Below, one piece after another: positions 2,788 through 16,872 of a stretch of 29,486 bases of DNA. The DNA comes from a virus: the IMG/VR virus record IMGVR_UViG_3300043137_000230, positions 1-29,486 of that record; one strand, 5' to 3'. The position numbers were made by a program, and so were the translations under genes. Below the pieces are notes generated by a model, which saw only the letters and a list, made by a program, of their open reading frames with translations, was not told where the DNA came from and made no database searches. Within the stretch, counting starts at the first letter, position 1; the number at the start of each line of letters is the position of its first letter.

Positions 2788-2798
2788 GGTTTGTTCTC

Positions 2799-2815
2799 TA
2801 TAAGGTACCGACTAG
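2799..2815 (-). promoter_or_regulatory. Promoter P1, T7-like phage RNA polymerase type
   Basis: On the - strand this reads CTAGTCGGTACCTTATA followed by GAGAA, 16 of 17 matches to the consensus of the six copies. The predicted start is the G opposite 2798. It lies just beyond the stop codon of the 2819-3034 gene and points into the deaminase-polymerase operon. The 17-base length and TATA-G end mirror SP6 and T7 promoters. Confidence 0.75.
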
Positions 2816-2818
2816 GTT

Positions 2819-3034
2819 TTAAGGTTCAATTCTATCTTCAGCTATAGCATAATAGTTATGGATTAATCGGGCTGCTTCGGCATGTTGTGCTAAAGCTATA
2901 CGTTCTTTAGCTGGTTCATTAAAAAAGAATACATTACTAGTGTCTGACTCAAGATAGTTAATGAAGGACTTGTATACCTCACGAAGTTCTTGTTGAACAA
3001 CGTTGTCTACATCCATCTCAATAACATATTTCAT
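2819..3034 (-). CDS. Hypothetical protein (71 aa)
   Basis: 71 aa, predicted mostly helical, no recognised domain. Its start overlaps the stop of the preceding 83-aa gene by ATGA, with a GAGGAAGC ribosome-binding site inside that gene. Its stop codon lies four bases from promoter P1, so the gene closes one transcription unit before the next begins. Function unknown. Confidence 0.75.
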   Translation of the reverse strand: MKYVIEMDVDNVVQQELREVYKSFINYLESDTSNVFFFNEPAKERIALAQHAEAARLIHNYYAIAEDRIEP

Positions 3035-3282
3035 TTGAAAGCTTCCTCAGATGTTTTAAAGATAAAAGTATCAACAAGTAGTTTACCATCACTATTGAAT
3101 CCATTTAAAGGCACTACATAGTATCGTACAGTTGTATAAAGGATATCTTTTTCTGCACCAACAGGCATACCTATTTGAATAATAGGTTGAATGCTTTTAA
3201 CTTTCATTTGGGTTACTGTATCTTTATCACGTACATATACAGTATCGCCTACATTGTATTTGTGTTCAAATGATGTTGTCAT
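3031..3282 (-). CDS. Hypothetical beta-rich protein (83 aa), possible SH3-like fold
   Basis: 83 aa. The sequence YNVGDTVYVRDKDTVTQMKV (about residues 9-28) resembles the first strands of small SH3-like or KOW-like barrels found in many phage accessory proteins, followed by further alternating hydrophobic strands. It is preceded by AAGGAAAG seven bases before the ATG. It lies right behind the terminator of the HNH gene, so expression depends on read-through or another start. Function unknown. Confidence 0.72.
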   Translation of the reverse strand: MTTSFEHKYNVGDTVYVRDKDTVTQMKVKSIQPIIQIGMPVGAEKDILYTTVRYYVVPLNGFNSDGKLLVDTFIFKTSEEAFK

Positions 3283-3301
3283 TAGTCTTTCCTTAGTGAA
3301 T

Positions 3302-3323
3302 AAAAAACCCTCCGAAGAGGGTT
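3302..3323 (-). terminator. Rho-independent terminator after the HNH gene, UUCG loop
   Basis: On the - strand the sequence is AACCCTC-TTCG-GAGGGTT followed by TTTT: a perfect 7-bp stem with the very stable UUCG tetraloop and a T-tract. It begins 5 bases after the stop of the HNH gene, closing the P2-HNH unit. Confidence 0.88.
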
Positions 3324-3327
3324 GTGT

Positions 3328-3705
3328 TTAGGTTTCTTGTAGGTATTGAATTGCTTTTATTAGGGTTAGCTTATTGTCTTTAAATAAACCTAAAGCAATA
3401 TTACATCCGTTACAAAGGATACCTCTTACATGGCCATTTGAGTGGCAATGATCTATCACGGCACCATTTAGTTGTCTGGTTCCTACACCGAACAATACTT
3501 TTGTTTCACATATAGCACAACAATTGTCTTGTTGTTCTAACATTATTTCTCTTTCAGGTGTAGTTATTTTGTAGTTAATCCAATTATGATGGCAAGAAAA
3601 GCAGCGTTGTCTATACTGTACTTTTCCTGTTTCACTTTTGTATTTACGTTTTATAGCTTCATTACATCCATCTGATAGACATTTTCCTATTAATTCTGTA
3701 AACAT
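3328..3705 (-). CDS. Free-standing HNH endonuclease of the recombination endonuclease VII family
   Basis: 125 aa. N-terminal zinc-ribbon-like CLSDGC and CFSCHHNW, then CCAICE (about residues 72-77), and the core VIDHCHSNGHVRGILCNGC with DHCH as the HNH metal site and CxxC zinc ligands. This is the phage T4 endonuclease VII type core used by many free-standing homing-type nucleases. It has its own promoter (P2) upstream and a strong terminator downstream, so it forms a self-contained unit. An AGGAG ribosome-binding site precedes the ATG. It shares its core pattern with the HNH gene at 22231. Confidence 0.9.
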   Translation of the reverse strand: MFTELIGKCLSDGCNEAIKRKYKSETGKVQYRQRCFSCHHNWINYKITTPEREIMLEQQDNCCAICETKVLFGVGTRQLNGAVIDHCHSNGHVRGILCNGCNIALGLFKDNKLTLIKAIQYLQET

Positions 3706-3783
3706 ATTACTCCTGTTAGTATTAAGTTGGAAAGCCTATTCATAAACAGGTATGAAAGAGTAGCGAACTTTTTCAGCTTTTCC

Positions 3784-3800
3784 TATTAGGTACCAACTAG
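3784..3800 (-). promoter_or_regulatory. Promoter P2, T7-like phage RNA polymerase type
   Basis: On the - strand: CTAGTTGGTACCTAATA followed by GGAAAA, 16 of 17 consensus positions, predicted start opposite 3783. The motif overlaps the 3' end of the GIY-YIG gene: its TAATAG supplies two successive in-frame stop codons. It points into the HNH gene with a leader of about 78 nt. Confidence 0.75.
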
Positions 3801-4391
3801 ATTTGTGCTCATATTATAATACATATGGCTGTCTTTTGCTTTCAAATTAATAAGTAATTGTGTTTCAAGTTCTAACATTTCTCTGTCAGAGCCATATGCT
3901 AAAATTACTCTTTTGAAGAGGCCTGGACATTCGTTGTAGTCTTGCATAAAGCTTGTACTGCTTGCGACATATCTATCATTAGTTGTTCCCTTGTGTTTTC
4001 CGATATATTTCTTTTCTGTTGCGGTGGAGTACCAAAGATAAACAAATGACTCACCGCTGTTGCTGTAGGCGTTAGTCTTGGTAGGGACTTCTTCATGATA
4101 CTCTCCCTTGATATGGTCTTGCCATATTTCTTTTACATAAGCAACCATAGGTTTTCCCTTAGGTGCTCGCCACATTACTACAAATGAAGGACTACTCTCG
4201 TTTTCACAGAGGTATTCATAGACCCATTTATTATGGAGTCCTGTATACTCAGTGTCACCGATAGTAACTTTCACCATAGACTTACCTGAGTCGGAGGTAT
4301 ATTCTTCGACTTCATCTACAGTACATTCATAGATATCGAAGAGTTTGTCTGTACCTGCAACCCATCGTTTAACTGTCTTTATTAAGTTCAT
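3786..4391 (-). CDS. GIY-YIG endonuclease with extra N-terminal domain
   Basis: 201 aa. Residues about 1-105 are an unrecognised N-terminal domain. After it comes a GIY-YIG type core: VYLWYSTATEKKYIGKHKG carries the VYLW and YIG elements, then an R in NDRYVASS and E in LELETQLL as the expected catalytic Arg and Glu. Such proteins are usually mobile nucleases of phage genomes. The start overlaps the preceding membrane-protein gene by ATGA. The last residues, LVGT and the stop, are encoded by promoter P2, so either the gene was inserted exactly against the promoter or the promoter arose in its end. Confidence 0.82.
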   Translation of the reverse strand: MNLIKTVKRWVAGTDKLFDIYECTVDEVEEYTSDSGKSMVKVTIGDTEYTGLHNKWVYEYLCENESSPSFVVMWRAPKGKPMVAYVKEIWQDHIKGEYHEEVPTKTNAYSNSGESFVYLWYSTATEKKYIGKHKGTTNDRYVASSTSFMQDYNECPGLFKRVILAYGSDREMLELETQLLINLKAKDSHMYYNMSTNLVGT

Positions 4392-4540
4392 TGTGTTAGC
4401 ATATATAAGCCTACGTTACCGAGGGCATATCCAAAGTAGGTTATTGACATACCGATATTACCTTTAGTGAATTGTTCTATAGAGATGTATAGATACACTA
4501 AGCCAATACCGGCGATTAGCATAGGCGATTCAATTTGCAT
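4388..4540 (-). CDS. Small two-helix membrane protein
   Basis: 50 aa from the ATG at 4540; an alternative TTG start at 4597 would give 69 aa but would overlap the upstream small gene by 68 nt. Two hydrophobic segments are visible, about residues 7-20 (MLIAGIGLVYLYIS) and 29-48, so it is probably a two-pass inner-membrane protein. Neither start has a clear ribosome-binding site. Its stop overlaps the GIY-YIG start (ATGA). Function unknown. Confidence 0.55.
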   Translation of the reverse strand: MQIESPMLIAGIGLVYLYISIEQFTKGNIGMSITYFGYALGNVGLYMLTQ

Positions 4541-4664
4541 AGGATTGAGTACGTACTTCTTCGATTTCTTGAATACTTGGTAGTACAGAGAACTCAAATT
4601 CAGCTAAGAAGTTGAGTCCTTCGTATACTCGTAGACGATCTTTGAGTATAAGTACTAATCTCAC
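4530..4664 (-). CDS. Small hypothetical protein (44 aa), GTG start
   Basis: It starts at GTG 4664, which overlaps the stop of the DUF3310 gene as GTGA, the same arrangement as the ATGA junctions of its neighbours. AGGCGAA lies upstream as a weak ribosome-binding site. The product begins with a basic hydrophobic stretch (RLVLILKDRLRVYEG) and is otherwise acidic. It ends 11 bases inside the next gene. No domain is recognised. Confidence 0.5.
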   Translation of the reverse strand: MRLVLILKDRLRVYEGLNFLAEFEFSVLPSIQEIEEVRTQSYAN

Positions 4665-5083
4665 TTGAGTTCGCCTAAGAAGCCAATGATAGTACCGTCA
4701 CGCTCAAGGATTTCAAGGCAACGTGTATACCATACTACTTTACGGACTTCTTGTAGTTCGTTATCTTTCTTACCCATACGCATGAGGTACTTATAGATTT
4801 GGCCTAATAGATGTTTCTTTAAACCTTCTTTACCTAAGATAAATTCCATACATTCAATGTACTGGTAGTTACCTACGATACCTTGATAGTGATCAGGATT
4901 GATTTGGTCTTTTACAGTGGTTGTCATAGCGTTATCGATCTCCTTGTTATATGCTTTTGCGAAGGTGTTAGGCCATACTTTTTCTACGAGATATTTATCG
5001 TAGAAGTCTGCTTTGTCATCAATACCGAATTCACGTTTATAGTCTGTTGCTTTCCACAGATGTTTGTCATTATCAATATACAT
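4661..5083 (-). CDS. DUF3310 domain protein
   Basis: 140 aa from ATG 5083; another ATG at 5089 directly abuts GGAGA, so the second, with six bases spacing, is preferred. The C-terminal half contains INPDHYQG, YQYIECMEFILG and a helical GQIYKYLMRMGKKDN segment: the DUF3310 pattern, which includes T7 gp1.7, a nucleotide kinase-like phage protein. The N-terminal 55 residues are less clear. It lies in a stretch with other nucleotide-metabolism genes (deoxyribosyltransferase, MazG-like, deaminases). Confidence 0.82.
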   Translation of the reverse strand: MYIDNDKHLWKATDYKREFGIDDKADFYDKYLVEKVWPNTFAKAYNKEIDNAMTTTVKDQINPDHYQGIVGNYQYIECMEFILGKEGLKKHLLGQIYKYLMRMGKKDNELQEVRKVVWYTRCLEILERDGTIIGFLGELK

Positions 5084-5321
5084 CACCATTCTCCATAATT
5101 TTTACATCTTCATAAGGGGCTGCTACACGGCGGTAGAATTCAAGTTTAGCACCTTCAAGGGCACCTAACACATCGTTAATACGTTGGTATGATTTACCGT
5201 TTAGCATTAGGTACTGTTGGATTACTTGTGTGAATACGAAGTTTAATTCACCTGCATCCATTGGTAATGTTTCTAATTCGGGGATTAGATTTACACGTTT
5301 ATTAGGGTTGATGTAAGGCAT
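5073..5321 (-). CDS. Conserved phage protein (DUF6899-like)
   Basis: 82 aa. The pattern MPYINPNKR at the start, GELNFVFTQVIQQYL in the middle and KLEFYRRVAAPYED plus ENGDVY at the end is that of a very widespread small phage protein I associate with DUF6899; the DUF number is from memory. It is usually carried among early/replication genes. Its end overlaps the DUF3310 gene. Function unknown. Confidence 0.82.
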   Translation of the reverse strand: MPYINPNKRVNLIPELETLPMDAGELNFVFTQVIQQYLMLNGKSYQRINDVLGALEGAKLEFYRRVAAPYEDVKIMENGDVY

Positions 5322-5330
5322 TTGTTTTCT

Positions 5331-5396
5331 TTAACTATAGAACGATACTCGATACCAGATGATATATACTACAATGATTCCTAGTACTGCGATCAT
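5331..5396 (-). CDS. 21-aa single-pass membrane microprotein
   Basis: Start ATG 5396 overlaps the stop of the deoxyribosyltransferase gene (ATGA), with GGAG six bases upstream. The 21 residues are almost all hydrophobic (MIAVLGIIVVYIIWYR then VSFYS), a single transmembrane helix. It fills an otherwise empty 71-base gap with the same coupling used by its neighbours, the main argument that it is translated. Function unknown. Confidence 0.5.
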   Translation of the reverse strand: MIAVLGIIVVYIIWYRVSFYS

Positions 5397-5815
5397 AGAT
5401 ACTCCGCGATGAGTGTGTCACAAGCTTTTTCGACAGTTGAACGCCATTCAGTGACTAATGATTCAAAGAATGGATGGATAATAGAAGCATCAGCTTTGAA
5501 TGCTACTACGGGTTTACGTAGAACATACGAAGCATAGAATACTTCCATAGCAGTACCATGCTTGGCTACTGTTGGGTTATCGAGGTTGACAAGGATGATG
5601 TCAGACTCTTGAATGTCTCGTAGATCTAATTCGAAGATACGTTTCATAGCGCGTTTTTCGAAGTTATGCAGTCTTCGAGTTGGGTCTAATGTGTATACAT
5701 CATTTTGGTTTAGTTGCCATGTAGCAATGTCACGCCAACCTTTTGCTTCAGTTGATGACACATGCTCCATTGGACCTGCTAAGTAGACTGTTCTTACTGG
5801 GTGTGGTTTGTACAT
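5393..5815 (-). CDS. Nucleoside 2-deoxyribosyltransferase-like protein
   Basis: 140 aa. YLAGPM at residues 11-16 is the nucleotide-binding start of the family, LDLRDIQESD at 63-72 contains the conserved Asp, and HGTAMEVFYA around 86-95 contains the catalytic nucleophile E91. The family exchanges bases on deoxynucleosides or hydrolyses the glycosidic bond of deoxynucleotides. Its ATG overlaps the RNA ligase stop (TAATG), and AGAGG lies upstream. With the deaminases and MazG-like protein it may salvage nucleotides or supply an unusual base. Confidence 0.85.
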   Translation of the reverse strand: MYKPHPVRTVYLAGPMEHVSSTEAKGWRDIATWQLNQNDVYTLDPTRRLHNFEKRAMKRIFELDLRDIQESDIILVNLDNPTVAKHGTAMEVFYASYVLRKPVVAFKADASIIHPFFESLVTEWRSTVEKACDTLIAEYL

Positions 5816-6702
5816 TAAAATACCTCTGGTTTAAGTTCTTTAACTTTTTGAGTACACAAGTTATTTAATGTTCTGAAGTCAATCTTAGGATTTTTAAATT
5901 CTTTAAGGATGTTCCACATTTCTTCGGTGATCAGATCATAATAGACTGTATGTAATAAACGAGGGATGTATTTAGATGACCAACCTTCCATTTCATTTAC
6001 GATTTTAGCATGGACTTTATCAACAAGGTGTTTATCAACGAACTTATCAACAATCTTTTCTTCAATGATTTCACCACCGACTAATGGAGCGCCCATTTTT
6101 TTGTGGTGACTTTCTTTGAAGGCATTAGTGATTAGTTTAGCCCATGTTTGACGACCATATTTATTTTCATAAGCATAGTTTTTAATAACAATACCTTCAC
6201 CATTACCTTTACCGTCATCAATTAAGAAGAAGTTACGGTTGAGGCATTCTTGATATGTTTCATAGTTACTGTTTTTGATGATAGCGATAGGTGCAATGTA
6301 GTCTACATTTGCTGTATCGAGGATATCTTTGTATTCGTCATAGTGAAGGTACTTTTCAGAGCCACGATTATATACATCAAAGATATAGAACTTACGCCAT
6401 GCATCTTCACGGTATGTTTTAAGGCTATGGGGTACAAGCCATTCTCCGTAGAAGATTAGGTGAGGGTGTGTTTTGGTAAGTTCGATATGTGCTTTACTGA
6501 TAGACATTGCATGGTAGAAACCTGCGTTATCTGCTTCAAGAGTTAGATGACGATTACGACTACCTGCTTGGATACAGTCATTTTCATACCAGATGCTACC
6601 GTTGGTACCATCAATTTTAGGGAATACATACGAGGTACCTACTTCGATACCATCAGTTTCATCAGTGTGAAGTTTTTCTAGGTGTTGATATTTAATAAAC
6701 AT
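5815..6702 (-). CDS. RNA ligase, Rnl2-like
   Basis: 295 aa. Motif I is K29-IDGTNG, with K29 the predicted AMP-accepting lysine; IFYGEWL (about 83-89) is motif III, FYIFDVYN (105-112) motif IIIa, EGIVIKNY (169-176) motif IV and WAKLI (187-191) motif V. The nucleotidyltransferase domain is complete; a helical C-terminal domain follows. Rnl2-type ligases join 3'-OH and 5'-phosphate RNA ends in duplexes, often repairing tRNA cut by host defences. No polynucleotide kinase is visible in the window. AAGGAAC precedes the ATG, which overlaps the upstream stop (TAATG). Confidence 0.9.
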   Translation of the reverse strand: MFIKYQHLEKLHTDETDGIEVGTSYVFPKIDGTNGSIWYENDCIQAGSRNRHLTLEADNAGFYHAMSISKAHIELTKTHPHLIFYGEWLVPHSLKTYREDAWRKFYIFDVYNRGSEKYLHYDEYKDILDTANVDYIAPIAIIKNSNYETYQECLNRNFFLIDDGKGNGEGIVIKNYAYENKYGRQTWAKLITNAFKESHHKKMGAPLVGGEIIEEKIVDKFVDKHLVDKVHAKIVNEMEGWSSKYIPRLLHTVYYDLITEEMWNILKEFKNPKIDFRTLNNLCTQKVKELKPEVF

Positions 6703-7001
6703 TAGAGTTCCTTAACGATTTTTAGTACATTAGCAGTAAACCATAAGCCACCTTGTGACTCAGGTCGTTGATGACGTTCTAGGTTATTGATTTCAACCTT
6801 ACACCATACACGCTCTTTTTCTGATAGATGAGGTGCTTTAGGTTCAGCACATGCATGCCAACCGGGGCGATGAGCATAACCTTTTGTTTTATGATCTTCA
6901 GCTTGGTACCATACTCCTGTGGTTAGTTTTTGTTTACGGTTAATAAAGAGTGGTCCATAAGTACCGTCTTTACGTTTACGAAAGAGTTTATAAGCAATCA
7001 T
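6702..7001 (-). CDS. Conserved phage protein of unknown function (99 aa)
   Basis: The start was set at ATG 7001, which overlaps the upstream stop (ATGA), instead of a longer form. The pattern YKLFRKRKDGTYGPLFINR, then KGYAHRPGWHACAEP and RPESQGGLWF, occurs in a common family of small phage proteins without known function. Conserved H, C and W residues are visible, but no complete metal site. Confidence 0.8.
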   Translation of the reverse strand: MIAYKLFRKRKDGTYGPLFINRKQKLTTGVWYQAEDHKTKGYAHRPGWHACAEPKAPHLSEKERVWCKVEINNLERHQRPESQGGLWFTANVLKIVKEL

Positions 7002-7192
7002 ACTTTTTCTACCTCTGTCCATGCTGCGAAGTGGTATACGTTGTTTTGTTCATCTCTACAATGAGAATACATACCGTCAATATTGTTTAGCTTATATTTT
7101 GTTTCTGCTGTACCTTCGAGTGCGTCTGGTGGTATAGATGGTTCTTCTGTTAGCTTAAAATTATCACCACGGTTTAGTTCATACAGTTTCAT
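6998..7192 (-). CDS. Conserved phage protein of unknown function (64 aa)
   Basis: 64 aa. It starts MKLYELNRGDNFKL and ends with NIDGMYSHC and NVYHFAAWTEVE, a small beta-rich phage family that is often next to the product of the downstream gene. Its stop overlaps the start of that gene (ATGA). Probably a single small beta domain. Function unknown. Confidence 0.78.
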   Translation of the reverse strand: MKLYELNRGDNFKLTEEPSIPPDALEGTAETKYKLNNIDGMYSHCRDEQNNVYHFAAWTEVEKV

Positions 7193-7355
7193 TTGAATCT
7201 TTGTTTAGTTTATCTGCGTAGTGTTGAGCTTCTTTTTCAGTTAAGAATAGAACTGCATCAGCGTAGTTTATTTCTTTACCTGCTACACCGTAGTACATTC
7301 GGTCAAGACCTTGTCTACGGAATACTAGGTAGTGTTTTAAGTCAGGTTTCGTCAT
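7179..7355 (-). CDS. Small hypothetical protein (58 aa)
   Basis: ATG 7355 to TGA 7179, read directly from the - strand. It fills the gap between two clear genes and overlaps both by 14 nt. It is a mixed charged protein with a central YYGVAGKEINYADAVLFL segment and a C-terminal acidic/basic helix. No domain recognised. Confidence 0.65.
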   Translation of the reverse strand: MTKPDLKHYLVFRRQGLDRMYYGVAGKEINYADAVLFLTEKEAQHYADKLNKDSNETV

Positions 7356-7602
7356 TTGAGAATTCTTCTAGAAACTTTTGGATGATATAGTCTTTAATAC
7401 CTTCATCAATTAGTGGAGAGATATCACGGTTAAAATGGTCTAGTAGGAATGACATCTTTTCAATGTAGCATTCAGCAGGAAAGTCAGGTTCATTTTTAAA
7501 ACCATACGCATCAATAGAACCTAGTTCTTCAGGCGAGTAGTAGATATCACAGAGGAAGGTGATCTTAGTTTCTTCATCAAAGTAGATAAAGTCGTGGTTC
7601 AT
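7342..7602 (-). CDS. Hypothetical protein (86 aa)
   Basis: 86 aa, strongly acidic, rich in aromatic residues. No motif recognised; the second half (from about residue 45) looks helical. The start overlaps the stop of the 45-aa upstream gene by ATGA. Function unknown. Confidence 0.7.
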   Translation of the reverse strand: MNHDFIYFDEETKITFLCDIYYSPEELGSIDAYGFKNEPDFPAECYIEKMSFLLDHFNRDISPLIDEGIKDYIIQKFLEEFSNDET

Positions 7603-7736
7603 GATGATAACACCTGTACAGTCATGTTGATAGCTTGAACAATCATCATTTGTTCTTGCGGATTAAGTTGAGACCAAGGGCGGCTGTTAGGGAAGTGCTC
7701 TTGCATTTTCTTATAGTATAGTTCTATATCACTCAT
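7599..7736 (-). CDS. Small conserved phage protein (45 aa)
   Basis: ATG 7736 to TGA 7599. The product contains YYKKMQEHFPNSRPWSQLNP followed by QEQMMIVQAINM, a pattern familiar from short phage proteins: an amphipathic helix, a proline-containing turn and another helix. It overlaps both neighbours, upstream by 8 nt and downstream by ATGA. Function unknown. Confidence 0.7.
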   Translation of the reverse strand: MSDIELYYKKMQEHFPNSRPWSQLNPQEQMMIVQAINMTVQVLSS

Positions 7737-7947
7737 AGTCACCTTCTTCAGTTGCGTAGCCCATGTTATAACCTTTATCAGTCATTTGTTTTATGACGTC
7801 ATCAGGTAGGGAGAACACACCATCATAGTCAACAAGATTATCATCTTCAAACCACATACGTCCTGCGAGGTCTTCACCTACAGTGTTGTGTTCGAAGTAT
7901 TTGACGTTAGGTCTCGGTGTATCATAGATAGTAAATTTACTTAACAT
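7729..7947 (-). CDS. Hypothetical acidic protein (72 aa)
   Basis: 72 aa, rich in D and E. No domain recognised. It overlaps the upstream Cys-rich gene by 7 nt and the downstream 45-aa gene by 8 nt. Function unknown. Confidence 0.68.
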   Translation of the reverse strand: MLSKFTIYDTPRPNVKYFEHNTVGEDLAGRMWFEDDNLVDYDGVFSLPDDVIKQMTDKGYNMGYATEEGDYE

Positions 7948-8336
7948 AGTTCCTCTTTTGCTTTCTTTAGCCAGTAGATCATAGGTTGAGGGTCAGATGC
8001 GTGTGTCCATTCATACCACGGGGCTTTGTCATCGTAATCATCTTCATTATCTTCACTACAGGCATAACCTCTTACTTTAGTGATTGGGCATCCTTCACAA
8101 TTGTTTATATCATACACTTGACATAATGCACATGATGGTGCAGAGGTGTCGAAGGTATTGTCATCTTTATCATAGATGTTATAGTGACCTTTTACTAAGT
8201 CATGCTTTTTTAGGTTGTGGTCTTGAAGACCATCCCACTTATTTAGGCAGTGGTCAATTAGCTCAATATTGTTAGTGTATTCAACTTCACAAGCGTTTAC
8301 TTTGTAGAACTCATCTTTCCAAGTTTCAATAGACAT
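7941..8336 (-). CDS. Cys-cluster protein, possible zinc-binding (131 aa)
   Basis: 131 aa. A central cluster CALCQVYD then CEGCPITKVRGYAC (about residues 69-92) has two CxxC pairs plus a further Cys and could bind zinc; similar clusters occur in small phage proteins of unknown role. The flanks are acidic. An AGGA ribosome-binding site precedes the ATG. A DNA or RNA contact is possible but not shown. Confidence 0.72.
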   Translation of the reverse strand: MSIETWKDEFYKVNACEVEYTNNIELIDHCLNKWDGLQDHNLKKHDLVKGHYNIYDKDDNTFDTSAPSCALCQVYDINNCEGCPITKVRGYACSEDNEDDYDDKAPWYEWTHASDPQPMIYWLKKAKEELC

Positions 8337-8338
8337 GA

Positions 8339-8605
8339 TTAATCCTGATTTGGGTAAGGTTTATAGATAGTGTTAAGGGTTTCAAAACTACCATCATCAA
8401 ATTTGTTAATTACAGATGATGTACGAACTCGATCAGAACCCCACGCAGGGTGGTTAACAGTACGTACATGTGCTACTACATGACCGGGGTAGAGGTCTTC
8501 ATCAAAGTCAGCAATACCTTTGAAGTACACTACAGGTTTAGCTGCATCTTTTGAACGTGAATTTAGTTGTTTTCTGTATGCGAGGGCTGTGCTTAGAGTA
8601 TCCAT
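8339..8605 (-). CDS. Hypothetical protein (88 aa)
   Basis: 88 aa. The segment GHVVAHVRTVNHPAWGSDRV followed by RTSSVI resembles the core of small beta-rich phage accessory proteins, with a possible beta-hairpin. AAGGAT lies in the end of the upstream gene. No named family recognised. Confidence 0.7.
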   Translation of the reverse strand: MDTLSTALAYRKQLNSRSKDAAKPVVYFKGIADFDEDLYPGHVVAHVRTVNHPAWGSDRVRTSSVINKFDDGSFETLNTIYKPYPNQD

Positions 8606-8606
8606 A

Positions 8607-8768
8607 TTAATTATCCTTTTTAGTTACTTCTTCAACATAAACTTCACCGGGGTCATACCCGATATCAAGGTAGACTTCATCATAGACTGTTTCTTCGGAT
8701 ACTCCTGTTGTGTAGTATTCTACTGTTGAACCTGAATCATAGTTGATACATACCCAGAAATTTTTCAT
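8607..8768 (-). CDS. Small acidic hypothetical protein (53 aa)
   Basis: ATG 8768 overlaps the upstream stop (ATGA); TAA at 8607, one base before the next gene. 53 aa, acidic, rich in Y and V, predicted beta strands; no domain recognised. The end of this gene supplies the ribosome-binding site for the next. Confidence 0.65.
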   Translation of the reverse strand: MKNFWVCINYDSGSTVEYYTTGVSEETVYDEVYLDIGYDPGEVYVEEVTKKDN

Positions 8769-8989
8769 TTTTTATTTTTAAAAGAGAATGTGTCTAGGAA
8801 CATAGTACCTTTAACTTGTGGTTGATAGAAGTTAATAGCGTAGTCACTATCAAAAGGACAAGGTACAAGGAACAGATTGAACGTTAATTTTTCTTTACTC
8901 ATTAGTTTGATTAGGTCTTGTAGGTTACGTTCATCAGTGGTTGTAGCATAGGTGAATGCTGAGGCAGCAAAGAAGTGATAGTCTTTCAT
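8765..8989 (-). CDS. Hypothetical protein (74 aa)
   Basis: The start was set at ATG 8989, which overlaps the upstream TGA in the repeated KEKNT junction. 74 aa; KDYHFFAASAFTYATTTDE at the start and an aromatic strand-rich second half (MFLDTFSF). AT-rich like the rest of the early block, in contrast to its upstream neighbours. Function unknown. Confidence 0.7.
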   Translation of the reverse strand: MKDYHFFAASAFTYATTTDERNLQDLIKLMSKEKLTFNLFLVPCPFDSDYAINFYQPQVKGTMFLDTFSFKNKK

Positions 8990-9228
8990 GTGTTCTTCTC
9001 TTTGCATTTGTCACAGTCGTGGTTAACACAGCCGATCTTTGGCATGTCTTGGTCTTGCTTTGGTTGTGCATCAGGGCATTGCAAACACATTTCACCCATC
9101 TCGCATGTTTGCTTGGCTAGTGCTTCTTCTAGGGTTTTGATGCACTGCTTTACATCCGCATAAAAAGACACGTTGTCATAAACTTTGTTCAACACATCAA
9201 TCGCCAGCTTCATTGCTGCGTTACTCAT
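8986..9228 (-). CDS. Cys-rich accessory protein of the GC-richer cassette (80 aa)
   Basis: 80 aa. The N-terminal half is helical (a CIKTLEEALAK segment), the C-terminal half has CEMGEMCLQC and CVNHDCDKC, clusters that could bind zinc. It ends KEKNT, like two other genes of this cassette. GAGGTGA is the ribosome-binding site. Base composition is clearly richer in GC than the genes on either side. Similar short proteins are common in phages of Burkholderiales-type hosts. Function unknown. Confidence 0.72.
   Translation of the reverse strand: MSNAAMKLAIDVLNKVYDNVSFYADVKQCIKTLEEALAKQTCEMGEMCLQCPDAQPKQDQDMPKIGCVNHDCDKCKEKNT
8987..9004 (-). repeat. KEKNT junction box, copy c
   Basis: On the - strand CAAAGAGAAGAACACATG. 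It encodes the C-terminal KEKNT of the 8986-9228 gene, its TGA and the ATG of the 8765-8989 gene. One base differs from copies a and b. Confidence 0.85.
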
Positions 9229-9674
9229 GCTTCACCTCTTGCGCGAATTCGGTTGGCAATTCCTACTGCGGTTCCGTTTTGTGGAGGCATAGAAGTAAGG
9301 GATATGTGATGTTCATATCTACAATCATCAGCCACCTTTGCACACGCCTCACGCTCGGCTTTAATTTCCTGTTCGCGGTACTCTTGCGTGGCAGTACCAA
9401 ACTGCGTTGGCTGGTTTTCAGGGTCAAGAAACAACTGCATCCAGCGATCACGCTCTGCCGACACAGCATCTTCTAACATCTTGATGTGTGCGTTACAGCG
9501 TTCAATCTCTGGGGAGTTTTTTGCGATGATTCGATCACGCTCTTTAGCTGCTACCAGTTTGGCAAAAACTTTAAGCTCAAACTCGCATGACGTTGGCGCA
9601 TAGATTGCATTGGTCACAGAACCAATTTCAAAACCAGCTTGTCTAGCCATCTCAATAATTTCGTCTTGGGTCAT
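9225..9674 (-). CDS. Coiled-coil accessory protein of the GC-richer cassette (149 aa)
   Basis: 149 aa. It starts TQDEIIEMARQAGFE, then has a long Glu/Arg-rich helix (about residues 45-115) and ends with CAKVADDC and AIRAR-like residues (ANRIRARGEA). This layout is typical of a family of unassigned phage proteins with a variable middle. It overlaps both neighbours by four bases (ATGA). Function unknown. Confidence 0.75.
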   Translation of the reverse strand: MTQDEIIEMARQAGFEIGSVTNAIYAPTSCEFELKVFAKLVAAKERDRIIAKNSPEIERCNAHIKMLEDAVSAERDRWMQLFLDPENQPTQFGTATQEYREQEIKAEREACAKVADDCRYEHHISLTSMPPQNGTAVGIANRIRARGEA

Positions 9675-10920: not shown

Positions 10921-10947
10921 GATGATTCCTTTTGGATGAGTTTGAAA

Positions 10948-10990
10948 TAAAAAGCCCGTTCAACAGACTTGTGGGTCTGCCGAAGGGCTA
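10948..10990 (-). terminator. Terminator after the ssDNA-binding protein gene
   Basis: On the - strand: GCCCTTC, an internal GG/TT mismatch, CAGAC-CCACAA-GTCTG, then GAA, a bulged C and GGGC, followed by TTTTTATTT. This long imperfect hairpin with a T-tract lies 13 bases behind the stop of the gene. Confidence 0.82.
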
Positions 10991-11002
10991 GTGTATAGTT
11001 AT

Positions 11003-11530
11003 TTAGAAGTCTGAATCTTGATGTGCTGCTGAAGGAGCACCACCGTCATCATCGAAGTCTACAAAGTTACTATTCTTTGGTTCGTACTTAACGAGGTTAG
11101 ATACTTGTACTGCAGTGAGCATTACAGAGGTACCTTCTTTGGTGACTACACCTTTAGGAGTCTTGATTTGGTAGTCTTTTAGGAATACCATAACGTTACC
11201 GAAAGAACCGTTACCGATAGTTTTTGGGTCTAGAGGTTGTTTGCTCATATCAACGACACGTACTTTAGTAGCATCTGTACCGTCTTTCTTTTGAGCTTTC
11301 TTTTTGAGGTTAATAGATACCTTACCAGTATCTTTACCGTCACGATCTTTTACAGGCTTAGTTTTACCGTAGGCTTCTAATTCTGCAGCACGAGCTTTAG
11401 GTACTTGGATAGAGATCTCGTACTGTTCAACACCGAACGGAGCTACTGGTTTGTCTAGTTTGACCCAGTGTAGTTCTACGTTGTTGATGATTTCGTTACG
11501 ACCTTCGGTGTTGTTCATAGCTTGTGTCAT
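11003..11530 (-). CDS. Single-stranded DNA-binding protein, T7 gp2.5-like
   Basis: 175 aa. The core has GNGSFGNVMVFLKDYQI and AVQVSNLVKYEP, characteristic of gp2.5-like phage ssDNA-binding proteins (OB fold), and the C-terminus is an acidic tail ending DSDF, with terminal Phe as in proteins that recruit polymerase and helicase by this tail. It coats ssDNA during replication. AAGGAAA precedes the ATG. It is closed by a terminator, and the only promoter pointing at it in the vicinity is P4, which lies beyond the opposing 11609-11998 gene. Confidence 0.85.
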   Translation of the reverse strand: MTQAMNNTEGRNEIINNVELHWVKLDKPVAPFGVEQYEISIQVPKARAAELEAYGKTKPVKDRDGKDTGKVSINLKKKAQKKDGTDATKVRVVDMSKQPLDPKTIGNGSFGNVMVFLKDYQIKTPKGVVTKEGTSVMLTAVQVSNLVKYEPKNSNFVDFDDDGGAPSAAHQDSDF

Positions 11531-11568
11531 TTGTTTTTCCTTTTGGAATATAGAAAGTTAAATTCTCG

Positions 11569-11585
11569 CTAGTCGGTACCTTATA
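11569..11585 (+). promoter_or_regulatory. Promoter P3, T7-like phage RNA polymerase type
   Basis: CTAGTCGGTACCTTATA followed by GATAAA, 16 of 17 consensus matches; predicted start G11586. It reads rightwards into the lone + strand gene at 11609 with a 23-nt leader that contains AGAGG. Being on the + strand it independently confirms that the motif follows the direction of the genes. Confidence 0.75.
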
Positions 11586-11608
11586 GATAAACACTATAGA
11601 GGTACAAA

Positions 11609-11998
11609 ATGAGCGAAGTAAAATTAGGAAAAGGGTTTAATCCCAAGTCCTTAGAGAATCTCAAGAGGATTACTCCTGAGACGGCTAGAGCAAACCAGCT
11701 GAAGAGCGTTGCAGCTAAACAGGCTAATATTGCAGCTAGAGAGCAGTTCAAGCTTAACGCTAAGAACTTTATTCAGGTTATGGATGAGCTACCTAAGCTT
11801 AGTCCATTGGATATCATGCGCATGGCTATTCATACAGCTATGGCTGAGAACAATTGGGAAGATGCTGCTCGATATGCCTCCTTATTGGCTGAGTATGAGA
11901 ATCCTAAGTTAGCCCGTATTGAGCAAACTAACACTAATCGTACTGTAGATCTTACAGACGAAGAGTTACAGAAGATTATTCAACAAGAGGGATTATAA
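11609..11998 (+). CDS. Putative small terminase subunit
   Basis: 129 aa. Basic N-terminal region, a helical middle (ELPKLSPLDIMRMAIHTA; then DAARYASLLAEYENPKLARI) and an acidic end (DLTDEELQKIIQQ). The AEYENPKLARIEQ followed by DEEL pattern is seen in small-terminase-like phage proteins; it is not a firm family match. It is the only rightward gene in the left half of the window, 4.9 kb from the large terminase. It has its own promoter (P3), AGAGG ribosome-binding site and terminator. A DNA-binding regulator is the main alternative. Confidence 0.5.
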   Translation: MSEVKLGKGFNPKSLENLKRITPETARANQLKSVAAKQANIAAREQFKLNAKNFIQVMDELPKLSPLDIMRMAIHTAMAENNWEDAARYASLLAEYENPKLARIEQTNTNRTVDLTDEELQKIIQQEGL

Positions 11999-12004
11999 AA
12001 TAAG

Positions 12005-12034
12005 AGAGAGTCAATTAAGACTCTCTTTTTATTT
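12005..12034 (+). terminator. Terminator of the lone + strand gene
   Basis: AGAGAGTC-AATTAA-GACTCTCT: a perfect 8-bp stem (12005-12026) followed by TTTTATTT, 7 bases behind the stop codon. On the opposite strand the flank TATTTTAT is also T-rich, so partial two-way action is possible. Confidence 0.9.
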
Positions 12035-12051
12035 GATTTAGAGATGTTCCC

Positions 12052-12068
12052 TATTAGGTACCGTCTAG
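12052..12068 (-). promoter_or_regulatory. Promoter P4, T7-like phage RNA polymerase type
   Basis: On the - strand: CTAGACGGTACCTAATA followed by GGGAA, 16 of 17 consensus positions, start opposite 12051. It would transcribe antisense through the lone + strand gene towards the ssDNA-binding protein gene. It lies within 3 bases of the stop of the 12071-12265 gene. Confidence 0.72.
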
Positions 12069-12070
12069 AG

Positions 12071-12265
12071 TTAGTACTTTGATTTTATGGTCCATGTTAC
12101 TTCTGCTTCATAGCATTTACTTAGCTCATAGAAGGTCATTTCGGATACATCGATATCATCTCGGATGTTATCACAGTAGTTTTTGTAGGCAAACTTTGGT
12201 TCTTTTCCGAAGGCGACATCAGCACTGTCGTTACCATCATCATCTGTTTTAACACACATCCACAT
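12071..12265 (-). CDS. Hypothetical acidic protein (64 aa)
   Basis: 64 aa, start ATG 12265 behind AAGAAAGG. It begins MWMCVKTDDDGND and is acidic through the middle. No domain recognised. It is the last gene of the P5 unit, ending beside P4. Function unknown. Confidence 0.7.
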   Translation of the reverse strand: MWMCVKTDDDGNDSADVAFGKEPKFAYKNYCDNIRDDIDVSEMTFYELSKCYEAEVTWTIKSKY

Positions 12266-12269
12266 ATAA

Positions 12270-12596: not shown

Positions 12597-12605
12597 GATG
12601 TGTTT

Positions 12606-13460: not shown

Positions 13461-13720
13461 AACAATTTTCCATTTAAGAAACATTTTTGAATACCCGTAT
13501 CTGGATCAAATACGACTGATTCTTTTTCTTTAACTTTTTTACGAATCCTAACGATGAGTTGTCGGTAGATTTCGGAAGCGGTTTCTGGGCTTTGTGGTTG
13601 TAGTGACATTTTTCGTGAATCCATAAATTGTTTATGCTTTATGTGAGATTTATGACAGTACCAAGCTTTAAAACAAAGCATGATACATAGCCATAGGATT
13701 AGCAGTAAGAACCAGATCAT
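13436..13720 (-). CDS. Small membrane protein with cytoplasmic tail (94 aa)
   Basis: 94 aa. Residues 2-20 (IWFLLLILWLCIMLCFKAW) are a clear transmembrane helix, followed by a positively charged region, so an N-out, C-in topology is likely. The start overlaps the upstream stop (ATGA). Function unknown. Confidence 0.72.
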   Translation of the reverse strand: MIWFLLLILWLCIMLCFKAWYCHKSHIKHKQFMDSRKMSLQPQSPETASEIYRQLIVRIRKKVKEKESVVFDPDTGIQKCFLNGKLLWTKKVRS

Positions 13721-13917
13721 AAGAATTTAAGTATTTTACTCATCATTGCGGTTAGTCTGTCTCTTGAATCTGGTTCACTGTTGTATACTATTGCAGGTAT
13801 AGATACGTTGTGTCTCATCATTTCTCTGAAGTTATTTACTTCCATTTGACTTTCTAAAATTATTTCTACTGTTAGAGGTTTGAAGGTAGGATTCGTTTGG
13901 GTAGTGCTTACAATCAT
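13717..13917 (-). CDS. Hypothetical protein (66 aa)
   Basis: 66 aa. The middle LTVEIILESQMEVNNFREMM followed by HNVSIPA resembles a common short phage protein with a strand-helix-strand pattern. ATGA overlaps at both ends. Function unknown. Confidence 0.72.
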   Translation of the reverse strand: MIVSTTQTNPTFKPLTVEIILESQMEVNNFREMMRHNVSIPAIVYNSEPDSRDRLTAMMSKILKFL

Positions 13918-14198
13918 TTGAGTAACTCCACATCGATTAGTTCTTTAGTTGTTGGGTCAAAGGTTAATCTAACATTGTCTGAAGGGTACTCAGTAATGCC
14001 GGGATGGATTAGTTGAGTCTGATTATTTTTGTATTCAATTTTAGCATATTTAACAATAGGTTCTGGTTTAACACGATACTCAGCTTCGGGAACCCATGAA
14101 GGATTTGTGATGTGTACCCATGTATTATTACAAGGTATTAACATCTCAATGGTAGCACCATTAGCCCATTGAATGATTAGATCTTTGTGAATATGCAT
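13914..14198 (-). CDS. Conserved phage protein (94 aa)
   Basis: 94 aa. The pattern LIIQWANGATIEM, then NPSWVPEAEYRVKPEP, is widely found in small phage proteins that describe a beta-rich domain ending in a YRIKP-like strand. The second half has a possible extra beta-sheet region. AAGGATAA is the ribosome-binding site. Function unknown. Confidence 0.8.
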   Translation of the reverse strand: MHIHKDLIIQWANGATIEMLIPCNNTWVHITNPSWVPEAEYRVKPEPIVKYAKIEYKNNQTQLIHPGITEYPSDNVRLTFDPTTKELIDVELLK

Positions 14199-14201
14199 TA
14201 T

Positions 14202-14627
14202 TTATCCTTTGATTAACTCTACTTTAATAGGTTTACCTGAATTATCAAAAGTCACTTTGATATTATCTTCTTCAGGTGACTGATCAGCTGTAGCCCATAC
14301 GGTATTCTTATTAGGACATACATGTACATGAATATTAGCTTCACTAGTTCTCTTTACTGTTAACTCTTCTTCATTGAAATAATCATTTAGACTATTATGT
14401 TCAACGGGGAAGTCATGATGAGGTGTAGCATATGAATACATACTCTCGTACATATCATCTGTTACTTTCCTTACTTGACCCCTACCTGAGATACTTCCTG
14501 TAATAGCTACTAGGATATCTAACTGCTCTTGAGAGATATCTACTTCATATCTATTTGTCTCTTTAGTCATAGCAATAATGCTATCATTGGATTCATACTC
14601 TACATTGATGTATTGATTGACTTTCAT
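14202..14627 (-). CDS. Hypothetical acidic protein (141 aa)
   Basis: 141 aa, acidic, no named domain. The C-terminal KVTFDNSGKPIKVELIKG resembles the end of the next gene product (LTFDPTTKELIDVELLK), suggesting a shared short C-terminal beta element. It is the first gene behind promoter P5, with a leader of about 100 nt and AAGAGG before the ATG. Function unknown. Confidence 0.72.
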   Translation of the reverse strand: MKVNQYINVEYESNDSIIAMTKETNRYEVDISQEQLDILVAITGSISGRGQVRKVTDDMYESMYSYATPHHDFPVEHNSLNDYFNEEELTVKRTSEANIHVHVCPNKNTVWATADQSPEEDNIKVTFDNSGKPIKVELIKG

Positions 14628-15014
14628 TGATTAACCTCTTTGATTAGATTCATTGATGATATATTCTTATAGGTATCTTATATAATATTCTTATATAATA
14701 TAACCTAAGGGAGGGAGAAGGAATATTCCTAATAGGTACCGACTAGGGTTTAGCGCCAGCTAAAGCTGACGTAGGGAATGGAGATAGCTCATAGGAACTG
14801 TCTTTTAGGTATAAGGTCTGTTGGGGATAGTTCTTAGAGGTATATTGACTTTTGTACCCTCAAAAACTTTCCTCACAACCCCTTACTTCTCCCCAGAATC
14901 TCCGCCATGACCCTCGTTCAGGTATACTCCATGCAGAATATACTCAAGGAAGGCCATAATGGTACCTAGTAGGAGCCGTTATTGCTTGAATGTCTCCAGG
15001 TATCGGTCGTATGC
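14628..15014. other. 387-base region without a clear gene; holds P5 and short inverted repeats
   Basis: On the left is the AT-rich leader of P5. P5 is at 14730. Its first transcribed bases form the palindrome GGAATATTCC (14720-14729). Behind P5 is CAGCT-AA-AGCTG (14757-14768). The part from 14770 to 14960 has only very short open frames without ribosome-binding sites. A partial promoter-like match (GGTACCTAGTAGG) occurs at 14961. No known RNA gene is recognised. Confidence 0.6.
14730..14746 (-). promoter_or_regulatory. Promoter P5, T7-like phage RNA polymerase type
   Basis: On the - strand: CTAGTCGGTACCTATTA followed by GGAAT, 16 of 17 matches, start opposite 14729. It points into the 14627 to 12071 gene series. 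Confidence 0.75.
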
Positions 15015-15227
15015 TTAGGGAACAACGTGACCGTTGTATGCTTCTCGTTGGTACCTAGTAAGTTCTTGTAGGTATTCTGTTAAAATACTCTCTGTAGCAG
15101 GTGCTTCTACGTGATCTTTCACTATTTGTAGTGTTGTTTGATGTCCTCTTAACAAGAAGCATAGGTTATTGAGGTCTTCTGAGGACATTTCTAGGTTGAA
15201 TGTCCCTCGGTGCTTAGTTAATCTCAT
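15015..15227 (-). CDS. Hypothetical helical protein (70 aa)
   Basis: 70 aa, predicted helical (SSEDLNNLCFLLRGHQTTLQ; LTEYLQELTRYQREAYNG). A very good ribosome-binding site, AAGGAGAAG, lies in the end of the upstream small gene, and the start overlaps that gene's stop (ATGA). Function unknown. Confidence 0.72.
   Translation of the reverse strand: MRLTKHRGTFNLEMSSEDLNNLCFLLRGHQTTLQIVKDHVEAPATESILTEYLQELTRYQREAYNGHVVP
15044..15060 (+). promoter_or_regulatory. Possible promoter-like motif inside a - strand gene
   Basis: CTCGTTGGTACCTAGTA on the + strand agrees with 13-14 of 17 consensus positions. It is inside the coding sequence at 15015-15227, directed against it, and lacks the GG after the motif. 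It may be a decayed copy, an antisense promoter or chance. Confidence 0.25.
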
Positions 15228-15331
15228 GATTTCTTCTCCTTTGGTTGAGCTCTTTGTTTAAAACGATAAGAAGAGCGTTGTTTTAGCTCTTCTTCTGTGT
15301 ATTTTCTTTTAGATTCGGATGAGTTGGTCAT
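15224..15331 (-). CDS. Small basic hypothetical protein (35 aa)
   Basis: ATG 15331 to TGA 15224. Very rich in K, E, S and R. Its last codons carry the AAGGAG ribosome-binding site for the downstream gene, with stop and start overlapping. Its own start lies 23 bases inside the upstream gene and has no clear ribosome-binding site, so it is less certain. Confidence 0.5.
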   Translation of the reverse strand: MTNSSESKRKYTEEELKQRSSYRFKQRAQPKEKKS

Positions 15332-15557
15332 ATGTTGCTGTGTATTCAACCATTGTCCCCTCAAGATCTACCACAGTACACATCTGTTCGAGTGTTGCCT
15401 TGGTAGTTGCATACGCAAAAGCTACTGTGTCACCTTCTACACCTGTAGACATGAGTGCTTTACAGCCGAATTCTGCAAGAGCTTCTTCGAGTGTCTCCCA
15501 TGTAGGCATATCGAAGGCTTGTGGTGTAAGAGGATTGAGTAAGAGGTATTTAGCCAT
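15309..15557 (-). CDS. Hypothetical protein (82 aa)
   Basis: 82 aa. Alpha/beta composition: ETLEEALAEFGCKALMSTG, then a TVAFAYAT strand and DLEGTMVEYTATYDQ. No domain recognised. GAAAG lies before the ATG. Function unknown. Confidence 0.68.
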   Translation of the reverse strand: MAKYLLLNPLTPQAFDMPTWETLEEALAEFGCKALMSTGVEGDTVAFAYATTKATLEQMCTVVDLEGTMVEYTATYDQLIRI

Positions 15558-15624
15558 GATTTTCTTTCAGAGTTGGTAGTTATAGGTACATTTTTGTTGT
15601 GTTTAATGCACTTATGGGTTAGTA

Positions 15625-15954
15625 TTACTCAGCAATGATGATGTTGTAGAACCACACGTTAGGATCGTTACCACCAGCTGCTACGAACTGGAGTGTCTCT
15701 TGGTTATCGTATGCTTTCTGAAGGTCTTTAGTCAATGACTTCAACACTTCGGTGCTAACAATACGATCAATACGACATTGACGCTTACGATTATCAGAGC
15801 CTGTAGCTTCGATAGAACGAGTAGTGTCATTGTAGGTAAGTTCTTTAAGAGTGACAGGCAGAGATACACGATCTTCACCTAATGGATTGTTAGTAGAGAA
15901 TACCACATTGATCTTGTTGATTGATGTGAAAGAAGGTGTGAAAGCTTTAGTCAT
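15625..15954 (-). CDS. Hypothetical protein (109 aa)
   Basis: The start was set at ATG 15954, which has AAAGGAATCATC before it, the same start context as the gene at 10920; an upstream ATG would give 141 aa but its additional residues look like translated leader. Predicted beta-rich, no domain recognised. The ~80 bases upstream are a non-coding leader. Function unknown. Confidence 0.7.
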   Translation of the reverse strand: MTKAFTPSFTSINKINVVFSTNNPLGEDRVSLPVTLKELTYNDTTRSIEATGSDNRKRQCRIDRIVSTEVLKSLTKDLQKAYDNQETLQFVAAGGNDPNVWFYNIIIAE

Positions 15955-16036
15955 GATGATTCCTTTGATTAATGATGAAAGCTTGGTACATACCCCAAGA
16001 GGTCTCTCCGTTGTAAGCCCGAGAAGAGCCATGAGT

Positions 16037-16153
16037 TTAGTAGTAAACAACTACGTCAACCATCTCTGGTGACCATTGATTTAACTCCCTAACATCTCTT
16101 GTTTGGTAAATTAATTTACCTGTCTTCTTAAAGTACACGTAGTACATAGTCAT
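16037..16153 (-). CDS. Small hypothetical protein (38 aa)
   Basis: ATG 16153 overlaps the upstream TGA (ATGA) with AAAGGAG before it; TAA at 16037. The product starts MTMYYVYFKKTGKLIYQTRD, short beta-hairpin-like, and ends with hydrophobic and tyrosine residues. The excellent ribosome-binding site and coupling support translation. Function unknown. Confidence 0.65.
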   Translation of the reverse strand: MTMYYVYFKKTGKLIYQTRDVRELNQWSPEMVDVVVYY

Positions 16154-16341
16154 TCTCCTTTAGAAACAATCTCTTCAAACTCAGATAGCGCTAAAGCCAA
16201 CTGAGAACAAGCCATGAAGCCTGATAAGAACATGATAGCAACAAGCTTGATGTCGTAGCCGTCTCTCTCGAAACAAACTAACGCATAACGAGCTGCAGCG
16301 AACCAAACAAACAGGATAGCCCCGTGGATAGCGTACTTCAT
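16150..16341 (-). CDS. Small two-helix membrane protein, first leftward gene (63 aa)
   Basis: 63 aa from ATG 16341, preceded by the near-perfect AAGGAGGAATAT. Two hydrophobic segments (about residues 3-23 and 32-52) are separated by a short charged turn, suggesting a hairpin in the inner membrane. It is the first gene of the leftward block, facing the large divergence region. A longer in-frame reading upstream (164 aa) is an effect of the stop-free composition there. Holin-like size, but function unknown. Confidence 0.75.
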   Translation of the reverse strand: MKYAIHGAILFVWFAAARYALVCFERDGYDIKLVAIMFLSGFMACSQLALALSEFEEIVSKGE

Positions 16342-16855
16342 ATATTCCTCCTTGGATTGAAGTAACAAGAGCAAGAGCGCTCTCCACAGTCCGTAGACTG
16401 CAGAGAAAGTTCTTAAGAAAACCACAAAGCAGTGAGAGCACCAGCCAGACACAGCGAGTACACAACACCAATGAACACAGGCAACAAACCAAACACAACG
16501 CCGTACACAACGGACAACAGACACAAGCAACAGAGAACAGTGAGCAGAGAGTAGAGAGCAGACACGGGACACCTCCAAGAAGAGACAGGGCAAGAGCGCC
16601 CAGACGAGACCAGCCAGCAGCAGCCAGCGACCACCACGAGACAAGGGGGGTCACAGAACCACAACAGGGGTATACCAACAAACCTTTGATTCTTTTTCAC
16701 ACACAAAGAAAAAGATACCCATAAGAAAACACCCACCAGACTTCCCCTCAGAACCTACCCCAAAAACCTCCCTTTTAAACCCTAGAGCACCCCTAAAAAA
16801 TTATAGTATATTTTCTCCCATAAAATTATAATAAATATTACAGTAATAATTTCTA
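16342..16855. other. Divergence region: T-depleted island, C-tract array and AT-rich segment
   Basis: No gene is supported here. From 16421 to 16680 the + strand has only about 10 T in 260 bases (hand count). From 16718 to 16793 seven runs of three or four C occur every 10-14 bases with almost no G. From 16798 to 16855 the DNA is very AT-rich and contains the palindrome TATTAC-A-GTAATA (16836-16848) and two TATAAT boxes on the - strand (16800-16805, 16825-16830), possible leftward host-type promoters without clear -35 boxes. The whole lies between the leftward and rightward gene blocks; a replication origin or control region is likely. Confidence 0.7.
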
Positions 16856-16872
16856 TTAGTCGGTTCCTATTA
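16856..16872 (+). promoter_or_regulatory. Promoter P6 of the late block, T7-like phage RNA polymerase type
   Basis: TTAGTCGGTTCCTATTA followed by GGAAAA, 14 of 17 consensus matches, predicted start G16873. It reads into the large terminase gene with a 52-nt leader that contains the inverted repeat ATAACGT-ACGTTAT (stem 7, loop 8) before the AGGACAC ribosome-binding site. Confidence 0.68.

Follow-up and report, generated by a model that had tools for sequence, protein, structure and literature searches.

The promoters of phages T7, T3, K11 and SP6 comprise 17 bases and a start purine, with variable positions from −12 to −8 and a conserved TATA-like segment from −5 to −1. The Autographiviridae, in which these phages are placed, are defined by genomes of about 40 kb in which the genes share one strand and the head genes are of the T7 type. 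An element with the same promoter layout occurs in IMG/VR record IMGVR_UViG_3300043137_000230, a fragment of a podovirus-like phage that was analyzed over its whole length of 29,486 bases (hereafter, the window). The element has the consensus YTAGTCGGTACCTAATA followed by G and is present in six copies, which, judging from the sequence evidence, very probably serve as promoters (−17 to +1) of a T7-type single-subunit RNA polymerase (RNAP) that the phage itself encodes. The predicted cognate enzyme belongs, like those of the Autographiviridae, to the PF00940 family, and has 734 amino acids as compared with 883 in T7 RNAP. To our knowledge, the specificity bases of the element (CGGTA) and its left part (TAG) are unlike those of T7, T3, K11 or SP6. 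The phage itself falls outside the Autographiviridae, having genes on both strands, a portal and capsid of the SU10 type, and long relatives of 58–64 kb. The element is best read as a promoter of an already known kind, the T7 type, with a specificity that appears to be new, in phages outside the T7 group.

Other single-subunit RNAPs from metagenomic phages have been matched to promoters. According to the parts of its description consulted, the EM1 RNAP, from an elephant-dung metagenome, was tested in vitro and has its own promoter in its 41-kb phage genome; that promoter, TCAGAAGTCACACTATAA, is 67% identical to that of T7 (PMC9596486) and unlike the present element. RNAPs 1575 and 2049 were obtained by metagenome mining, with promoters that were likewise inferred from genomic data sets and compared with those of T7 and SP6; natural covariation of RNAP and promoter was not found in the passages of that report consulted (PMC13029058). 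The closest named phage in the collection searched is Roseobacter phage CRP-7 (MK613349; terminase 58.8%, RNAP 31.5%), which has the same order of DNA polymerase, exonuclease, primase and RNAP genes. Its T7-like RNAP is noted in the description of that phage, and the word 'promoter' is absent from its main text (PMC6918029). Megablast of window positions 1–25000 against named phages gave no match. In the literature searched, by the titles and opening lines of abstracts, neither the element nor its specificity nor a series of matched switches was found described, which is not proof of being unpublished; GGTACCTAATAG did not occur there, and among the listed papers that contain shorter pieces (10 of 69) none has a title on phage promoters.

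The six copies had been proposed in an earlier note on this DNA, and all are present at the positions and on the strands that it gave, each followed by G. Scored against CTAGTCGGTACCTWATA, the copies at 2799 and 11569 have no mismatch, those at 3784, 12052 and 14730 have one, and that at 16856 has three. The note had counted 14 of 17 matches for the last of these, which is right, and 16 of 17 for the other five, which holds for three of them, the remaining two being perfect. At up to three mismatches the window contains seven places, versus a mean of 0.10 in dinucleotide shuffles (maximum 2 in 100 shuffles). The seventh, at 15044 (+), has three mismatches, lies inside an open reading frame (ORF) of the opposite strand (15015–15227, −) and is probably a chance match.

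Four copies are on the minus strand. The copy CTAGTCGGTACCTTATA+G at 2798–2815, with a predicted +1 at 2798, begins, read leftwards, 4 bases after the ORF at 2819–3034 and is upstream of leftward genes, among them that for a MazG-like protein and, more distantly, that for DNA polymerase. A short ORF begins 11 bases past its predicted +1, and its distance to the next called gene, 154 bases, is matched by its counterparts in records G004 (48998, +; 153 bases) and G006 (59841, −; 154 bases). The copy CTAGTTGGTACCTAATA+G at 3783–3800 overlaps the 3′ end of the ORF at 3786–4391, with positions 3784–3800 covering its last codons; the equivalent place in G004 has no copy within one mismatch. The copy CTAGACGGTACCTAATA+G at 12051–12068 begins 3 bases after the ORF at 12071–12265 and faces the 3′ end of a small-terminase-like ORF, and CTAGTCGGTACCTATTA+G at 14729–14746 is upstream of the leftward ORF at 14627–14202. 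On the plus strand, CTAGTCGGTACCTTATA+G at 11569–11586 lies 23 bases upstream of the small-terminase-like ORF, and TTAGTCGGTTCCTATTA+G at 16856–16873 lies 52 bases upstream of the large terminase gene, which is followed by packaging and structural genes. The copies are thus located between genes or at gene ends, as the note had described. Its further statement that their orientation follows the genes behind them is borne out for five of the six; the exception is the copy at 12052 (−), which faces the 3′ end of the plus-strand ORF at 11609–11998, in an arrangement that is itself conserved among related records.

No RNAP had been seen in the window, and a PF00940 profile search of the window indeed returned no match. 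The note had suggested looking for such a gene in the rest of the genome, naming its absence there as a refutation, and it was found on an overlapping contig. IMG/VR was scanned with the element and with the terminase, which gave 22 stretches and 80 loci. Contig G023 (IMGVR_UViG_3300043103_000108; 38,425 bases) overlaps window positions 1–9459 with 100% identity over 9459 bases; the match is free of mismatches and gaps and extends from the first base of the window to that of the contig. Because of this 9.46-kb identity, we treat the two records as belonging to a single virus population. In G023 the DNA polymerase gene continues and is followed by a gene that we read as exonuclease-like, a primase-helicase gene and the RNAP gene (13741–15945), which lies 4,282 bases past the left edge of the window. 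Its product matches PF00940 (1.4e-56) and the PHROG RNA polymerase family (4e-100); the only Pfam match spans residues 313–709, the N-terminal part being without any. A structure predicted by AlphaFold has a mean predicted local distance difference test (pLDDT) score of 82, and a fold search of the PDB with this model returned T7 RNAP as the top matches, among which the T7 promoter complex 1cez ranked fifth by E-value (template modeling score 0.69, by query length). The DGS and HDSF motifs align with those of T7, and the catalytic aspartates (T7 D537 and D812) correspond to D430 and D667, which are invariant in 31 sequences.

Outside the window, G023 contains three more copies of the element, at 15989 (+), 18265 (+) and 36101 (−). 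The first of these, CTAGTCGGTACCTAATAC, begins 44 bases past the last base of the RNAP gene. At this place the copy often reads TAATAC, with C in the position of the start base (L277:15989–16006 and at the 3′ end of the RNAP gene in many loci), and a gene resembling B12-dependent ribonucleotide reductase (L277:16035–17903) directly follows the RNAP gene and its promoter copy. A T7-like single-subunit RNAP is encoded by all 16 distinct related contigs of at least 58 kb, of which 4 had been recruited by the element alone, 1 by both queries and 11 by the terminase alone; in G005 the gene is split over the contig ends.

The placement of the element was examined in 15 clade A records (858,290 bases), using NTAGNCGGWWCMTWWTAS with at most one mismatch. 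This yielded 105 sites, two of them counted twice where the window and G023 overlap, as compared with one each for the reversed and complemented control patterns. With genes called by a simple ORF rule, 96 of the 105 sites are outside called genes, versus 4,038 of 30,000 random points (13.5%); the random scatter inside genes that the note had named as evidence against its interpretation is not what is seen. The 96 non-genic sites agree in direction with the next gene in 79 cases, versus 2,021 of the 4,038 random points.

Placement at the terminase genes was compared in 20 of 23 records (CRP-7, G018 and G023 being left out), each scanned with the element of its own lineage. Every one of the 20 has a co-directional copy upstream of the small-terminase-like ORF, 18–166 bases from the aligned start, and 18 (not G003 or G017) have a second copy that lies past the 3′ end of this ORF and faces it. 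Both clade A and clade B keep the facing pair, which is not found in the one clade C record. For the large terminase gene, 18 of the 20 have a copy 27–68 bases upstream, with G003 having it at 236 bases and G002 having none. In the window, the two facing copies (11569–12068) flank the small-terminase-like ORF, and a hairpin with a T run (about 12003–12035) occurs between its stop codon and the facing copy. The facing pair would generate either an antisense RNA to the small-terminase-like ORF or a collision of polymerases. A small-RNA reading is not favored, as the hairpin that follows the facing promoter varies among the 18 records in which it was folded.

The promoter interpretation gains independent support because the element covaries with the specificity loop of the RNAP. 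At the same places, the elements of related lineages contain GTCCCC in clade B, GCTCTAA in clade C and GGCCCC in one further lineage. Upstream of the terminase, 34 of the 80 loci were inspected, of which 22 have an A-like element and 12 have, about as far from the gene, AGTAGTCCCCTAATAG or GACGTCCCCTAATAG. In the set of 16 long records, the B element (at most two mismatches) occurs only in G009, G010 and G015, with 6, 7 and 7 copies, respectively, its reversed control giving 2 matches in other records; the A element is found in the remaining 13, with no overlap between the two sets. Across 23 records, 17 have the A element, 3 the B element and 1 the C element, and none has two types. CRP-7, searched for the A element at up to two mismatches, and G018 have none of the three. 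Clades A and B share the initiation part TAATA, in place of which clade C has CTAARGG.

The RNAPs that accompany the B element form one clade with a distinct loop, KHRGTIRGIPGNPKGRIRHV, as compared with KQRGTIKGIxGNKDGRVMHV in most of clade A, and a profile alignment places the Met/Arg position of this loop on Q758 of T7 RNAP. In T7, N748 contacts positions −10/−11, R756 contacts −9 and Q758 contacts −8, according to the parts consulted of PMC5937735. A set of 72 loci was assembled from 80 loci found in a scan for RNAP relatives, by dropping L224 and L227 (cut short), adding L121 and merging identical proteins. When Met or Thr occupies the position equivalent to Gln758 (56 loci), the exact A element is present in 41 and the CCCC type in none, whereas all 10 loci with Arg (7) or Asn (3) have the CCCC type and none has the exact A element. 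The 6 loci with Ser have neither. These Ser-bearing RNAPs make up clade C, in which the loop is shorter by two residues and the element is a distinct one, GCCCWGCTCTAARGG, often preceded by TTA. In G017 this sequence has 5 non-coding copies versus 0.03 expected; with at most one mismatch there are 6 copies in total, of which one lies within a called gene and another 27 bases before the large terminase gene. The other loci of this clade have one or two copies in 6 of 7 cases, the 3-kb locus L223 having none. A previous guess at the clade C element, AACCCCTTATA, failed, as it occurred in one copy only.

The RNAP of locus L216 carries Arg at the Gln758-equivalent position, yet in a quick tree it groups with those of L208, L211, L213 and L214. 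Its elements are AGCAGGCCCCTAATA or close variants, whereas the cores of its relatives are GGTACC and one GGCACC in L208, GGTACC and GGTGCC in L211, GGTGCC, GGTTCC and GGAGCC in L215 (whose RNAP is identical to that of L214), and GGAGCC in the single match of L213. The Met-bearing L211 and L214/L215 do not have CC at −9/−8. Because the Arg-bearing L216 groups with relatives that keep other cores, CC has accompanied Arg twice, and the tree indicates that Arg with CC at −9/−8 arose at least twice, in clade B and independently in L216. This locus resembles an intermediate, combining GG at −11/−10, as in clade A, with CC at −9/−8, as in clade B.

Motif searches made without prior knowledge of the element returned it in part. 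The first two were mostly swamped by coding repeats, yet yielded the L216/G018 element. When confined to non-coding DNA, the search ranked the lineage's element first in four of seven records (G006, G018, G003 and G015, the last tied) and not first in G017, G019 and CRP-7. Scoring against base composition placed it first in G003, G015, G017 and G019.

The earlier note had offered, as an alternative to a promoter, a repressor operator; the element would then be a site with dyad symmetry, bound by a phage repressor or activator. The core GGTACC is palindromic and is kept in 68 of 94 non-genic clade A sites, and the outer TA...TA bases are mostly symmetric (81/94 and 94/94), a symmetry that the search pattern favors. 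The remaining cores include GGTTCC (13), GGAACC (7), GGTACA (3), GGTGCC (2) and GGAGCC (1), all of which break the dyad. Because the pattern used to count sites itself fixes some positions, symmetry was scanned in 14 records with TANNNGGTACCNNNTA, in which only TA, GGTACC and TA are fixed. In none of the 61 places found do the three free positions on one side mirror those on the other: the triplet to the left of the core is GNC or GNT in 46, and that to the right is TAA, TTA or TAT in 60. The class of dyad operators, with its two-fold half-site symmetry, is therefore not matched, and the element is instead asymmetric, about 17 bases long, with a TATA-like end before a start purine that is G in 79 of the 94 sites. 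Since the B element also occupies the same sites without a dyad, and the sites mostly point along genes, an operator is very improbable.

The element might also be a promoter for the host RNA polymerase, aided by a phage-encoded sigma factor or activator, with the phage RNAP acting elsewhere. Co-directional placement between genes would look identical in that case. Such a promoter would leave unexplained why the element changes with the loop of the RNAP, including the separate change in L216, and we consider it still less probable than an operator. A mobile or recombination repeat, an origin or a primase site might be thought to sit between genes by chance; the copy at 3784 lies between an endonuclease VII-like gene (3328–3705) and an ORF (3786–4391) that is GIY-YIG-like by eye and has no Pfam match, and this copy is not kept in G004. 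Across lineages, the other copies remain beside the same genes as their sequences change in concert, and their strand follows the genes, so that this explanation has hardly any probability left.

A promoter for the phage RNAP is thus supported by the RNAP gene, by the placement of the copies and by their covariation with the loop, and several observations weigh against it. C rather than G is found at +1 in 15 of the 94 non-genic clade A sites, many of them just after the RNAP gene, and C at this position is unusual for this class of polymerase. Of the 105 sites, 9 are inside called genes, and 17 of the 96 non-genic ones are not directed toward the next called gene. The specificity loop aligns weakly with that of T7, and the AlphaFold model is unreliable in this region, with pLDDT below 50 at residues 590–604, 606–620 and 627–635. 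Among the 56 Met/Thr loci, 15 have no exact A element, some of them being short and some having variants, and L164 (Thr) has just one near-match of the CC type, which lies within the RNAP gene. In clade B, base −10 is not fixed (T in 17, A in 3 and G in 2 of 22 sites). Finally, because related sequences are not independent, the number of events is smaller than the counts of 41/56 and 10/10 suggest.

CRP-7 may have a promoter of its own. A candidate, TATAGTCCMYTATTA, is found upstream of five genes, in one case 15 bases before the RNAP gene, and its 7 occurrences at up to three mismatches are hardly above the 5 and 5 in two controls. Scored against base composition, it ties for first place with a repeat resembling a ribosome-binding site. 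The candidate is suggestive only. Its copies in CRP-7 (L127/L128) read TATAGTCCMYTATTAAAAGG at 2025+, 7146+, 14763+, 38267− and 57217−, one of them with TGTAG; positions −11 to −8 are GTCC as in clade B, and the CRP-7 RNAP has Asn at the Gln758-equivalent position. A first guess for this phage, CCGAGTTCCTTATTAG, was rejected, giving one full match and five with four mismatches.

Binding, start site, strength and timing, as well as the part played by the host polymerase, are inferred from the sequences. By analogy with T7, the specificity loop would read approximately positions −12 to −8 (CGGTA), TAATA at −5 to −1 would melt, and the RNA would start at the next G. The first RNAP would be made by the host polymerase. 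The phage enzyme would then transcribe leftwards through the replication genes, its own gene and that of ribonucleotide reductase, with the copy at 12051–12068 (−) driving the single-stranded DNA-binding protein gene (11530–11003) and then further leftward genes. Rightward transcription would proceed from separate copies, one for the small-terminase-like ORF and one for the large terminase and structural genes.

The genes of the window fall into two arms. To the left, on the minus strand, are the 5′ part of a family A DNA polymerase gene (2–1123), cut by the window edge and identified by Pfam DNA_pol_A on the full gene in G023; the MazG-like and endonuclease VII-like genes, assigned by Pfam and PHROG; and a gene for a Gp2.5-like single-stranded DNA-binding protein (11003–11530; phrog_112, 1.5e-14; no Pfam match), which is the first gene to the left of the facing promoter and the plus-strand ORF. 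That plus-strand ORF (11609–11998, 129 amino acids) has no Pfam or PHROG match, and its name, small-terminase-like, is a guess from its C-terminal sequence and place. The right arm, on the plus strand, contains the large terminase gene (16925–18556; Terminase_6N, 1.1e-6; Terminase_6C, 5.3e-5), along with those for an SU10-type portal (7.6e-126) and capsid (9.9e-73). Small genes resembling endonuclease VII, HNH or GIY-YIG nucleases are scattered at 3328–3705, 3786–4391, 22231–22608, 24977–25357 and 25995–26507, of which the first is confirmed by Pfam and PHROGs and the rest were judged by eye.

We lean, at somewhat better than even chances, toward the view that one uncultured lineage has rewritten its whole promoter set several times in step with its polymerase, by a partly readable code. 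The Gln758-equivalent residue would set −9/−8 (mostly TA with Met or Thr; CC with Arg or Asn, with Arg twice independently), and the equivalents of T7 residues 742 and 754 would bias −10 (G with Gln or Phe together with Asp; mostly T with His together with Lys or similar), so that close relatives would coexist with mutually blind transcription. If this is correct, these phages would provide several natural pairs of RNAP and promoter with new specificities outside the T7 group, usable as orthogonal expression parts, and would make operon annotation possible in a large uncultured group (one scan found 470 stretches that encode relatives of the RNAP). They would also represent a natural series for how a phage changes the specificity of its polymerase and all of its promoters together.

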